Positions 4,203 through 30,372 of a stretch of DNA of 64,000 bases are shown here, piece after piece. The notes beneath the pieces are model-generated. The model was not told the origin of the DNA. It saw only the letters and a list, made by a program, of their open reading frames with translations, and did no database searches. Position numbers and translations under genes: made by a program. Origin of the DNA: an uncultured Coriobacteriaceae bacterium. Lineage in GTDB: Bacteria; Actinomycetota; Coriobacteriia; Coriobacteriales; Coriobacteriaceae. The stretch covers positions 62,001-126,000 of the forward strand of contig CALULH010000001.1 in NCBI GenBank assembly GCA_944321435.1, read 5' to 3'. The first letter of the stretch is position 1; each line of letters opens with the position of its first letter.

Positions 4203-5768
4203 ATGGCTGAGAACAAGCGTCATCTCCCGGCGCTCCTGGTCATCATGGACGGCTTCGGCCTGGCTCCGGCCGGCGACAACAATGCCGTCTTCAAGGCTGA
4301 CAAGCCCTATCTGGACAAGCTCTGGAACGAGTACCCGCACACCACGCTCGGTGCCTCCGGTGAGGACGTGGGCCTGCCCGACGGTCAGATGGGCAACTCC
4401 GAGGTGGGTCACCTCAACATCGGCGCCGGCCGCATCGTGTTCCAGGAGCTCAGCCGCATCAACAACTCCATCATCGACGGCTCCATCGAGGAGAACCCCA
4501 CCTTGGTCTCCGCTATGGACGACGTCGCCAAGAGCGGCAAGACCCTGCACCTGCTGGGCCTCGTCTCACCGGGCGGCGTGCACTCCATGCAGCGCCATGG
4601 TGAGAACCTCGCCGCCATCGCCGCCATTCACGGCGTGAAGCACATCCGCTTCCACTGCTTCATGGACGGTCGCGACGTTGACCCGCACTCCGGCGCGGGC
4701 TACGTGGAGACGCTGAAGCAGAACCTCGAGGCGCTCTCCACCTACGCCGAGGTCGATGCCCGCATCGCCACCGTCTCGGGCCGTTACTGGGCCATGGACC
4801 GCGACAACCGCTGGGAGCGCGTCGAGCGCGCCTACGACGTGGTCACCCTGCCCGCCGAGACCGAGACCGATCCGGTCGAGGGCGTCAAGGCCTACTACGA
4901 GAAGGACCCGCGCGGCGACGAGTTCATCGAGCCCTTCGCCTGCCATAACGAGGGCGTGGCCGACGGCGACGCCATGGTGTTCTTCAACTTCCGTCCGGAT
5001 CGCGCCCGCGAGATGACCCGCGCGTTCACCGAGGTCGATTTCGACGGCTTCGAGCGCAAGGTCGCGCCCAAGCTCAGCCACTTCGTTACCATGACGGAGT
5101 ACGACGAGACGTTCAAGAACGTCGAGGTTGCCTTCCCCAAGACCTTCCCCGAGAACGTCCTGGCCGATGTTATCGCCCAGAACGGCCTGAAGCAGCTGCA
5201 CACCGCCGAGACCGAGAAGTATGCCCACGTGACGTTCTTCCTGAACGGCGGCGTAGAGGAGCCCAAGGAGGGCGAGGAGCGCGTGCTCGTTCCCTCGCCG
5301 AAGGTCGCCACCTACGACCTGCAGCCCGAGATGTCCGAGCCCGAGGTCACCGAGAAGCTCGTCGAGGCCATCAACGAGGACCGCGCCGACTTCTACATCG
5401 TGAACTACGCGAACTGCGACATGGTGGGCCACACCGGCGTCTTCGACGCCGCGGTCAAGGCCGTCCAGGCGGTTGACGACGGCCTGTCCAAGGTCATCCC
5501 GGCCATCCTCGCCAAGGGCGGTTTCGCGCTCATCACGGCCGACCACGGCAACGCCGACCATATGTACGACGTGGACGATGCGGGCGAGAAGCACCCCTTC
5601 ACCGCCCACACCACCAACCGCGTCCCGTTCATCGTGGTTGACGACAAGGCCAAGCTCACCGGTATCGAGGACGGGCGCCTGTCGGATATCGCTCCGACCA
5701 TGCTCAGCCTCGCCGGCATCGAGCCCAGCAAGGAGATGACCGGTCGCATCCTCGCCGTCGAGGAGTAA
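4203..5768 (+). CDS. gpmI: Phosphoglycerate mutase, cofactor-independent (2,3-BPG-independent)
   Basis: Converts 3-phosphoglycerate to 2-phosphoglycerate using two metal ions and a phosphoserine intermediate (alkaline-phosphatase superfamily). 521 residues, typical. Seen: N-terminal VIMDGFG (metal-binding Asp), active-site Ser66 in GQMGNSEVGH, and the C-terminal metal ligands in NYANCDMVGHTG and ITADHGNAD followed by AHTTNRVPF. ATG 4203 directly abuts the tpiA stop, so pgk-tpiA-gpmI form one translationally linked unit. A strong terminator follows. Confidence 0.98.
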   Translation: MAENKRHLPALLVIMDGFGLAPAGDNNAVFKADKPYLDKLWNEYPHTTLGASGEDVGLPDGQMGNSEVGHLNIGAGRIVFQELSRINNSIIDGSIEENPTLVSAMDDVAKSGKTLHLLGLVSPGGVHSMQRHGENLAAIAAIHGVKHIRFHCFMDGRDVDPHSGAGYVETLKQNLEALSTYAEVDARIATVSGRYWAMDRDNRWERVERAYDVVTLPAETETDPVEGVKAYYEKDPRGDEFIEPFACHNEGVADGDAMVFFNFRPDRAREMTRAFTEVDFDGFERKVAPKLSHFVTMTEYDETFKNVEVAFPKTFPENVLADVIAQNGLKQLHTAETEKYAHVTFFLNGGVEEPKEGEERVLVPSPKVATYDLQPEMSEPEVTEKLVEAINEDRADFYIVNYANCDMVGHTGVFDAAVKAVQAVDDGLSKVIPAILAKGGFALITADHGNADHMYDVDDAGEKHPFTAHTTNRVPFIVVDDKAKLTGIEDGRLSDIAPTMLSLAGIEPSKEMTGRILAVEE

Positions 5769-5840: not shown

Positions 5841-5914
5841 GTGCCATTGGGGACGGGTACATTTGACAGTTCCGTATGCCATTGGGTGCCATTGGGGACG
5901 GGTACATTTGACAG
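5841..5914 (+). repeat. Two direct copies of the transposase-associated repeat (left side)
   Basis: Two identical 29-nt copies (5841-5869 and 5886-5914) share the core CCATTGGGGACGGGTAC followed by ATTTGACAG, spaced 45 nt apart. The same unit occurs twice in inverted orientation on the far side of the transposase gene, and its core recurs beside nrdD. Confidence 0.85.
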
Positions 5915-6195
5915 CTCCGCGGCTGCCCTGAGGGTCGTTCCATCGCATTTGCGCCGTCTCGCCCTAACACGGATCTATCCTCGTTCTATCACAGATCTAA
6001 CACTCAAAAAGGGCGTATGAGCTGCGGAAACAACGGGTATGAACATCCTCATCACGATAGGGGTCGTGTCTAAGGAGCGAAGGCCGTGGGGAGCGGTTGG
6101 GACGTCTGCCGCAATGCTTGGGTCACGCACGACGCCCTGTGATGCGCTTCCGTTCCCCATGACGTACGCCCCTTTAGAACGGGGACGGTGGGAGC
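5915..6195. other. Non-coding stretch before the transposase gene
   Basis: About 280 nt with no convincing gene. It contains a degenerate piece of the repeat core (ACGGGGACGGTG) just before the transposase ATG. Otherwise I see no recognisable signal. Confidence 0.4.
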
Positions 6196-6939
6196 ATGGT
6201 CCGAAGAGCGCGCGCTAGGGCGGAATCCGGGTTCTACCACGTAGTGTTACGTGGCAATGGCAGGCAGATCATCTTCAATGACGATGCCGACAGACGGGAG
6301 TTTCTCCGCTTGCTCAAACGGGCGGGGGATGCCGAATCAGTAGGTATCATCGCCTGGTGTCTCATGGACAACCATGTCCATCTCCTGCTTAACGACGAGT
6401 CAGGCCACCTGTCTCCGATGGTGCATCGTTTTGCCAGCATGTACGCGCGGTACTTCAACGAGAAAGCAGGTCATGTGGGGTCTCTGTTTGAGGGCAGGTT
6501 TAAAAGCAAAGCCATTGAATCGGAGGCGTATTTGTTGCAGGCTGTTCGCTACATTCACGATAACCCGCTTGCTCTGGGATATACCCGTGATTCGTATCCG
6601 TGGAGCAGTTATCGCGAGTATATGGGTGCGGCGACGCTCTCGGACACGGCGTTGCTGACGGGCATGCTGGGCGGAAAAGAGGGGTTTGCGCGGTTCAGTG
6701 CTGAGGGAGCTGCCGACTGCTATGCATTCGAGGGTGGGCCAAGGCGAGGGGACAGGGGCGTCGTCGAGGCGCAGCATGTTTTGCGGGGCGTCGAACCTGC
6801 CAAAGTGAAGGGGCTGCCCCAGCATGAGTGCGATCGGTGCCTGCGTGCGCTCCGCACGGCGGGGTTCTCGATACGGGCGATTGAGCGTCTGACTGGCATA
6901 GGCCGGTATCACATTAACAAGGTAACAAGCGCAATGTGA
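6196..6939 (+). CDS. REP-associated tyrosine transposase (Y1/HUH, IS200-like)
   Basis: Single-strand-specific Y1 transposase of the RAYT type, a domesticated IS200/IS605 relative. 247 residues. Seen: the metal-binding HUH motif His60-Val-His62 in DNHVHLLL, a candidate nucleophilic tyrosine at 119 in RYIHDNP, the SLFEGRFKSK loop near 96, and a C-terminal helix-turn-helix (LRTAGFSIRAIERLTG) of the kind that binds DNA in this group. Flanked by inverted copies of one repeat (5841-5914 and 6981-7046), the arrangement known for RAYT genes and their REP sequences. It separates gpmI from secG, which are adjacent in many relatives, so insertion here is likely. The frame is intact, so it may be active. 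Confidence 0.9.
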   Translation: MVRRARARAESGFYHVVLRGNGRQIIFNDDADRREFLRLLKRAGDAESVGIIAWCLMDNHVHLLLNDESGHLSPMVHRFASMYARYFNEKAGHVGSLFEGRFKSKAIESEAYLLQAVRYIHDNPLALGYTRDSYPWSSYREYMGAATLSDTALLTGMLGGKEGFARFSAEGAADCYAFEGGPRRGDRGVVEAQHVLRGVEPAKVKGLPQHECDRCLRALRTAGFSIRAIERLTGIGRYHINKVTSAM

Positions 6940-6980
6940 CCCGCAACAGCCTCTTCGCCTCCAGCATCCCAGGGTCTTGT

Positions 6981-7046
6981 GTCAAATGTACCCGTCCCCA
7001 ATGGCGCGTCCCCAAAGGCGCGCCAAATGTACCCGTCCCCAATGGC
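6981..7046 (-). repeat. Two inverted copies of the transposase-associated repeat (right side)
   Basis: Copies at 6981-7005 and 7024-7046 are the reverse complement of the left-side repeats, sharing 25 and 23 nt exactly. Between them lies a truncated copy (7006-7023) that also forms a TGGCGCG/CGCGCCA palindrome. Confidence 0.85.
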
Positions 7047-7111: not shown

Positions 7112-7408
7112 ATGGTACTCGAAGGCATTGTCTTCAATGGTAAGGAGCACGTTTTGGGTCCGTTGCAGATCGCTATTTTCGTTGTCTGGGCAATCTCCGC
7201 CCTTGCGCTTATCGCGCTCATCCTCATGCACTCCGGCAAGGGTACCGGCGTGTCTGACATGATCGCCAGCTCGCTGTACACGTCCAATTCCGCCAGCGGC
7301 GTGATGGAGAAGAACCTCGACCGCCTCACCGTTATCGCGGGTGTCGTTTTTGCCGTGTGCGTGGTGCTGGCCATGTTCTTCTTCCCGCAGGGCATCGTGG
7401 GCATCTAA
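7112..7408 (+). CDS. secG: Protein translocase subunit SecG
   Basis: Small membrane subunit of the SecYEG channel, stimulating protein export. 98 residues with two hydrophobic segments (about 15-36 and 72-93) joined by the family's short polar loop with LMHSGKGTG and a Ser/Gly-rich stretch. ATG 7112 follows ACGGAGGT at ideal spacing; the longer frame upstream reads through the transposon repeats and is rejected. secG next to whiA-gap-pgk-tpi is the standard actinobacterial order, here interrupted by the transposase gene. Confidence 0.93.
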   Translation: MVLEGIVFNGKEHVLGPLQIAIFVVWAISALALIALILMHSGKGTGVSDMIASSLYTSNSASGVMEKNLDRLTVIAGVVFAVCVVLAMFFFPQGIVGI

Positions 7409-30308: not shown

Positions 30309-30372
30309 GGCCATTGGGGACGGGTACGAATGGCAGGCGGGCGTCTGCCATTCGTACCCGTCCCCAATGGCC
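30309..30372. repeat. Perfect 28-bp palindromic pair of the transposase-associated repeat
   Basis: The arms 30309-30336 and 30345-30372 are exact reverse complements around an 8-nt loop. Each contains the 17-nt core CCATTGGGGACGGGTAC found on both sides of the RAYT gene at 6196. Beyond the core the sequence differs (GAATGGCAG in place of ATTTGACAG). This is a BIME-like pair 23 kb from the transposase. Confidence 0.9.

Follow-up and report, generated by a model that had tools for sequence, protein, structure and literature searches.

A probable REPIN-RAYT system at a conserved gpmI-secG address in Coriobacteriaceae

Related transposases and their repeats

RAYTs are regarded as domesticated transposases with no known use. 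In Pseudomonas and E. coli, a single stable RAYT gene is flanked by its own REP sequences (PMC3116915; structure 4ER8), and REPs are found in intergenic DNA as head-to-head hairpins, denoted REPINs, the arms of which carry compensatory changes (Bertels & Rainey 2011, PMC3116915). TIRYT genes, according to Di Nocera 2013 (PMC3733652), encode Y1 transposases, and are flanked by terminal inverted repeats fitting the consensus GGGGWSAS; such repeats are also found away from the genes, where they occur singly, as dimers or in clusters. TnpA-REP subclass 2.1 is equated with RAYT group 1 in Quentin 2018 (PMC6006769; Bertels 2017 as cited there). Its members feature a Y---NP signature, the HUH motif, an extra C-terminal HTH-like domain and low copy number, and the survey found no REP-like sequences near the genes (PMC6006769).

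The locus described here was found in a stretch of 64,000 nucleotides, hereafter the window. It is very probably a REPIN-RAYT system in a Coriobacteriaceae bacterium, of the kind named subclass 2.1, RAYT group 1 or TIRYT, in which the gene would stay in place and the hairpins would be moved or copied in trans. The putative assignment to this kind is based on architecture and repeat core. The locus shares with the Pseudomonas and E. coli systems the single stable RAYT flanked by its REP, the intergenic head-to-head hairpins and the compensatory changes in their arms, but the GTAG foot is missing, GGGGAC is located inside the loop of the REP itself, and close species have different RAYT alleles at a single site. 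As in TIRYT elements, a Y1 gene lies between inverted repeats with a GGGG-rich core that also occur elsewhere in the genome; here, in contrast, the dispersed repeats are mainly near-perfect head-to-head hairpins, and the address of the gene is conserved between genera. The core GGGGACGG fits the GGGGWS part of the TIRYT consensus, the next letter being G and not A, and the core GGGGACAG of some relatives fits GGGGWSAS in full. Coriobacteria and Actinobacteria were not found in a term search of Di Nocera 2013 (PMC3733652). The locus has the protein features and low copy number of subclass 2.1, but flanking and genome-wide repeats are present. A RAYT group with an extra C-terminal domain, for which REPs had been reported as not found, has clear REPIN families in these bacteria. 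REPIN-RAYT is a known kind of system, but here the gene keeps one address while RAYT and matching repeat change together between species.

The RAYT gene and its product

The gene (positions 6196 to 6939, plus strand) is an intact ORF for a RAYT or TnpA-REP-like HUH-Y1 nuclease of 247 amino acids. Its conserved neighbours, both on the plus strand and outside the element, are gpmI on the left (4203 to 5768) and secG on the right (7112 to 7408). The HUH motif corresponds to H60-V61-H62, and the catalytic tyrosine Y119 is part of Y119-I-H-D-N123-P124, which has the Y---NP signature. Among 45 relatives, H62 and N123, along with further residues, do not vary, and H60 and Y119 are conserved in at least 90%. 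The protein matches Y1_Tnp (Pfam, E 1e-12) and REP_Tyr_transpos (NCBIfam, E 7e-18); the latter score, 64.9 bits, is below the NCBI equivalog cut-off of 80 bits, which counts against the preferred assignment. The closest named relative is the RAYT of Collinsella sp. An2 (70%).

Since a sequence search of the PDB with the RAYT gave no match, a fold search was run with a structure model (pLDDT 88.7). The best PDB match is 4ER8 (E 2.4e-7, TM 0.75 on target), a complex of the E. coli RAYT with a REP hairpin; the IS200, IS608 and ISDra2 transposases follow at about 1e-4. The modelled fold is nearer to TnpA-REP than to IS200 transposases. The model also features a helical, HTH-like C-terminal domain at residues ~209-244. 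HTH_23 and HTH_28 were matched at the C-terminus of some relatives, HTH_7 was also matched among relatives, and a profile search up to E 0.1 found no HTH family on the RAYT of the window.

GGGGAC, the REP core, is also found where ribosomes presumably bind ahead of the gene (6181 to 6195, GGGGACGGTGGGAGC-ATG), and directly 5' of the RAYT start codon at loci L027, L144, L169 and L198. Self-regulation and chance are both possible explanations. At locus L019 (genome G015) the first HUH histidine is replaced by tyrosine (SNYIHLL). This gpmI-site RAYT may be inactive, and the near-identical one at L018 (genome G026) may share the change.

Repeats flanking the gene

Two direct REP copies precede the gene on the plus strand. 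The first, GTGCCATTGGGGACGGGTACATTTGACAGTTCCG, spans 5841 to 5874, and the second (5886 to 5919) is identical to it at 33/34 positions. Inverted copies follow the gene on the minus strand: one of 26 nt (6980 to 7005), 100% complementary to both upstream copies, and one of 23 nt (7024 to 7046), also 100% complementary. A partial copy (7007 to 7019, minus strand) with 12/13 matching nucleotides (92%) lies between them. The association of repeats and transposase gene described in the original prediction is confirmed, as is the layout of a direct pair before and inverted copies after the gene. The 29-nt unit proposed there is slightly longer in the upstream copies, 34 nt; among the two or three downstream copies counted, two stand and the third is the 13-nt partial one. 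The window holds 6 copies of the 17-nt core. In shuffled windows it was found, allowing up to 3 mismatches, 0.22 times on average and 2 times at most.

A genome-wide family of hairpins

The genome hosting the window (G000; 2.30 Mb, 26 contigs) was searched for the core, as had been proposed. With up to 2 mismatches, 60 copies were found, 28 on the plus and 32 on the minus strand, and none with a mirrored control pattern. A hairpin pattern identified 24 head-to-head pairs, again with no hit for the mirrored control. Pairs are organized as GCCAnnGGGGACGGGTRCnnnTGGC...loop... followed by the reverse complement, and the arms begin with GCCAnnGGGGAC. The 5' foot of this REP hairpin lacks the GT[AG]G tetranucleotide typical of canonical GTAG families. 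All the two-REP places (25/25) and 2 single REPs examined in this genome are located outside genes predicted by our own codon-usage method, and 19/25 two-REP places lie between genes of the same direction, mostly at no more than ~115 nt from the stop codon of the upstream gene. These dispersed intergenic doublets are REPINs. One of the same family is found in the window itself at 30310 to 30371; it is a near-perfect palindrome, similarly set between same-direction genes. Two REPINs folded as examples form stems of 28-29 bp, with about -38 kcal/mol as DNA, and z scores of REPIN hairpin stability range from -12 to -17. Single REP hairpins fold weakly in this genome, an observation counted against the preferred reading. 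Besides the usual hairpins, single REPs clustered in one orientation, with additional fragments containing GTCCCC, were seen at L040 (G000:C7:400-1100) and L034 (G000:C2:94800-95500).

A general REP form was derived from one repeat for each of 32 RAYT lineages, anchored on GGGGAC; the invariance of this motif is accordingly built in by construction, GGGGAC being the search anchor. The sequences flanking it pair within each repeat with a mean stem of 5.8 nt, compared to 3.2 nt after halves of different lineages were swapped (at most 4.0 in 5000 draws). As judged from this pairing, the REP is a stem with GGGGAC in the loop, and the stem is lineage-specific. No GGGGAC repeat was found near the gpmI-site RAYTs of G005 and G008, which also counts against the preferred reading.

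RAYT homologues were identified in 119/298 genomes of the class, mostly in one to three copies, and hairpins of the pattern searched for occur mainly in Coriobacteriaceae. Within the family, at least two hairpins were found in 17/28 genomes with a RAYT homologue and in 0/9 without (Fisher p 0.0014). The G019 genome, which has five RAYT homologues, hosts a family of more than 15 identical 48-nt hairpins, each at its own place, and a second family, and these look like the product of recent spread or amplification. Along a collinear 144-kb stretch, G000 and G002 have one REPIN in common and two private to each, suggesting gain or loss of REPINs between the two species. No alignment with clean empty sites was obtained at REPINs of these two genomes, because their intergenic DNA is too diverged.

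A conserved address downstream of gpmI

A RAYT gene is located directly 3' of gpmI in 17 Coriobacteriaceae genomes, that of the window included, and downstream of gpmI also in one Collinsella aerofaciens record (L146). The RAYT is followed by secG, in five genomes after an additional ~800 nt. Comparison of the gpmI-secG gap in relatives, as had been suggested, did reveal a short RAYT-free gap in some (G001, G003, G011, G014, G020, G031, G033 and G036). In G007 the gap lacks a RAYT and holds one perfect REPIN, of the type flanking the RAYTs of G013 and G002; it looks like the trace of a lost RAYT. When gpmI-site occupancy is mapped on a tree of 88 RAYTs, 4 changes are counted, against a mean of 16.7 after shuffling. 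The AU test does not reject a single origin of the RAYT at this site (p 0.4).

Given the conserved address and the few changes of site, the RAYT gene does not act like a unit that moves. The original prediction saw the gene as interrupting a conserved gpmI-secG neighbourhood and possibly moving as a whole. This part is not supported, as presence of the RAYT at this site is the common state in the family (the 17 genomes above), the site changes are few, and the gene is single-copy in G000. Gene and repeats could alternatively be an autonomous insertion sequence that transposes as a unit, the hairpins being derivatives by internal deletion (MITEs). The perfect 23-26 bp inverted repeats bounding the gene speak for it, as do related RAYTs at other places in other genomes and the codon usage of the gene, whose GC3 is 0.66 compared to ~0.9 in most neighbour genes. 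Nevertheless this origin is highly improbable. Copy number and shared address argue against it, each side of the gene carries paired copies in the same orientation instead of one terminal repeat, no match to the RAYT was found on plasmids, and the only phage match is weak (26% identity). IS200/IS605 elements transpose as whole units and occur in near-identical multiple copies; here there is one copy, at the same site. Mobility of the whole unit was rejected because of the conserved address, and carriage by plasmids or phages because of the missing and weak matches, respectively. In G000 the RAYT gene is stable, is present once on the chromosome, and lies between copies of the REP that is also dispersed in this genome; what appears to be mobile in the REPIN-RAYT system is the small hairpin rather than the gene.

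The REPIN-RAYT reading is preferred because of the abundance of the core relative to its control, the 24 intergenic hairpins, the conserved catalytic residues, the match to 4ER8, the HTH matches in some relatives, the signs of gain, loss and spread of hairpins and the perfectly matched arms in G000, and because REP distance follows RAYT distance (see below) and all genomes of the family with at least two hairpins have a RAYT homologue. In the proposed mechanism, the RAYT would recognise single-stranded REP by its GGGGAC core together with the stem around it, and would cut it with Y119 and HUH chemistry. The hairpin would then be copied or moved in trans at a low rate, as comparative evidence suggests. 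The gene itself would stay put, and other alleles would take its place; homologous recombination via gpmI and secG is the probable route.

Turnover of RAYT alleles and repeats

At the shared site, gpmI proteins are 88-95% identical and the adjacent RAYTs 44-70%. RAYTs of G000 and G002, which belong to the same genus, are 49% identical, whereas those of G002 and G013, from different genera, are 84% identical. Similarly, the RAYT of G012 is 73% identical to that of G034 and 61% to that of G019, its gpmI sister. In 14 genomes REP distance correlates with RAYT distance (r 0.84), also when gpmI is allowed for (partial Mantel, r 0.82, p 0.0001). Repeat type goes with RAYT lineage and not with host. 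That the RAYT has its own REP family, as originally predicted, is supported by this correspondence as well as by the genome-wide hairpins and the fold match.

Because divergent RAYTs lie beside a conserved gpmI and the REP follows the RAYT, alleles seem to replace one another in a fixed slot, and such exchange would account for the pattern of RAYT, REP and gpmI. The gpmI tree is poorly resolved around G000, G002, G004, G009 and G013 and was rejected as a host tree, so the case for exchange is based on distances and on one well-supported conflict, G012 grouping with G034/G010 versus G019. Rapid divergence of the RAYT in place fits the tree less well, and the deviating codon usage noted above is compatible with both processes. 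Two genomes count against the preferred reading. G002 hosts 18 hairpins of the G000 type, and the only RAYT found there is of another lineage. G007 has three hairpin families, two of which, the 48-nt GGGGACGGGTGCGTTTTTCTCA... and the GTGTTCC families, have no matching RAYT among those found. A broader scheme is advanced tentatively, and is rated possible, a little short of probable: the gpmI-secG gap would be an allelic slot, in which divergent RAYT alleles with their own REP codes swap by interspecies recombination, orphan the resident hairpins and found a new hairpin family each time, RAYT and REP co-diversifying under specificity pressure.

The many natural RAYT-REP pairs found at one address in gut Coriobacteria provide a set for deriving recognition rules, i.e. 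which residues read the REP stem. The same set bears on why the gene persists, and on how hairpin arms stay symmetrical.

Symmetry of hairpin arms

The 24 REPINs of G000 feature 12 different 19-nt arms, and arms are perfectly matched in 24/24. No mismatch was observed, compared to 1.97 per element upon random re-pairing (minimum 1.17 in 5000 draws). The hairpins could mainly be functional RNA, either terminators or stabilisers of mRNA 3' ends, kept by selection, the RAYT being incidental to their present role. Their position near stop codons between same-direction genes and their high stability suit such a role, and one REPIN is identical over 57 nt in two species, with flanks differing by ~10-15%. 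Yet in the core, GGGGACGGGT(A/G)C, the sequence itself is fixed and not just the pairing, and G-T wobble, which selection on RNA would permit, is absent from the variable arm pairs of the 24 elements. Repeat type follows the RAYT instead of the host, and the presence of hairpins varies between close species. A search of the RAYT locus gave no Rfam family at its gathering score, so a known RNA family was rejected there. A mainly RNA-level function is thus considered unlikely, if slightly less so than the insertion sequence.

Within the REPIN-RAYT reading, symmetry is probably maintained by template switching within the hairpin at replication, not by selection on RNA. Template switching homogenises the arms of inverted repeats, according to PMC8604942, PMC8794818 and PMC7202029, and probably acts on the REPIN arms of G000. 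Symmetry is lower in other genomes (perfect arms in 7/14 hairpins of G004 and 3/11 of G034), which counts against the preferred reading; arm symmetry is therefore no simple readout of RAYT activity. Decay of orphan hairpins after loss of the matching RAYT was also considered and is not supported: orphans are perfect in 12/18 cases in G002 but in 12/13 in G007, and G004, whose RAYT matches its hairpins, has the low proportion just given.

At loci L029-L055, extra GCCATT or GCCATTGGG pieces often flank the hairpin at either end, an arrangement that recalls a stacking of repeats through nested insertion or slippage. One difference of this kind in an outer piece was observed between G000 and G002.
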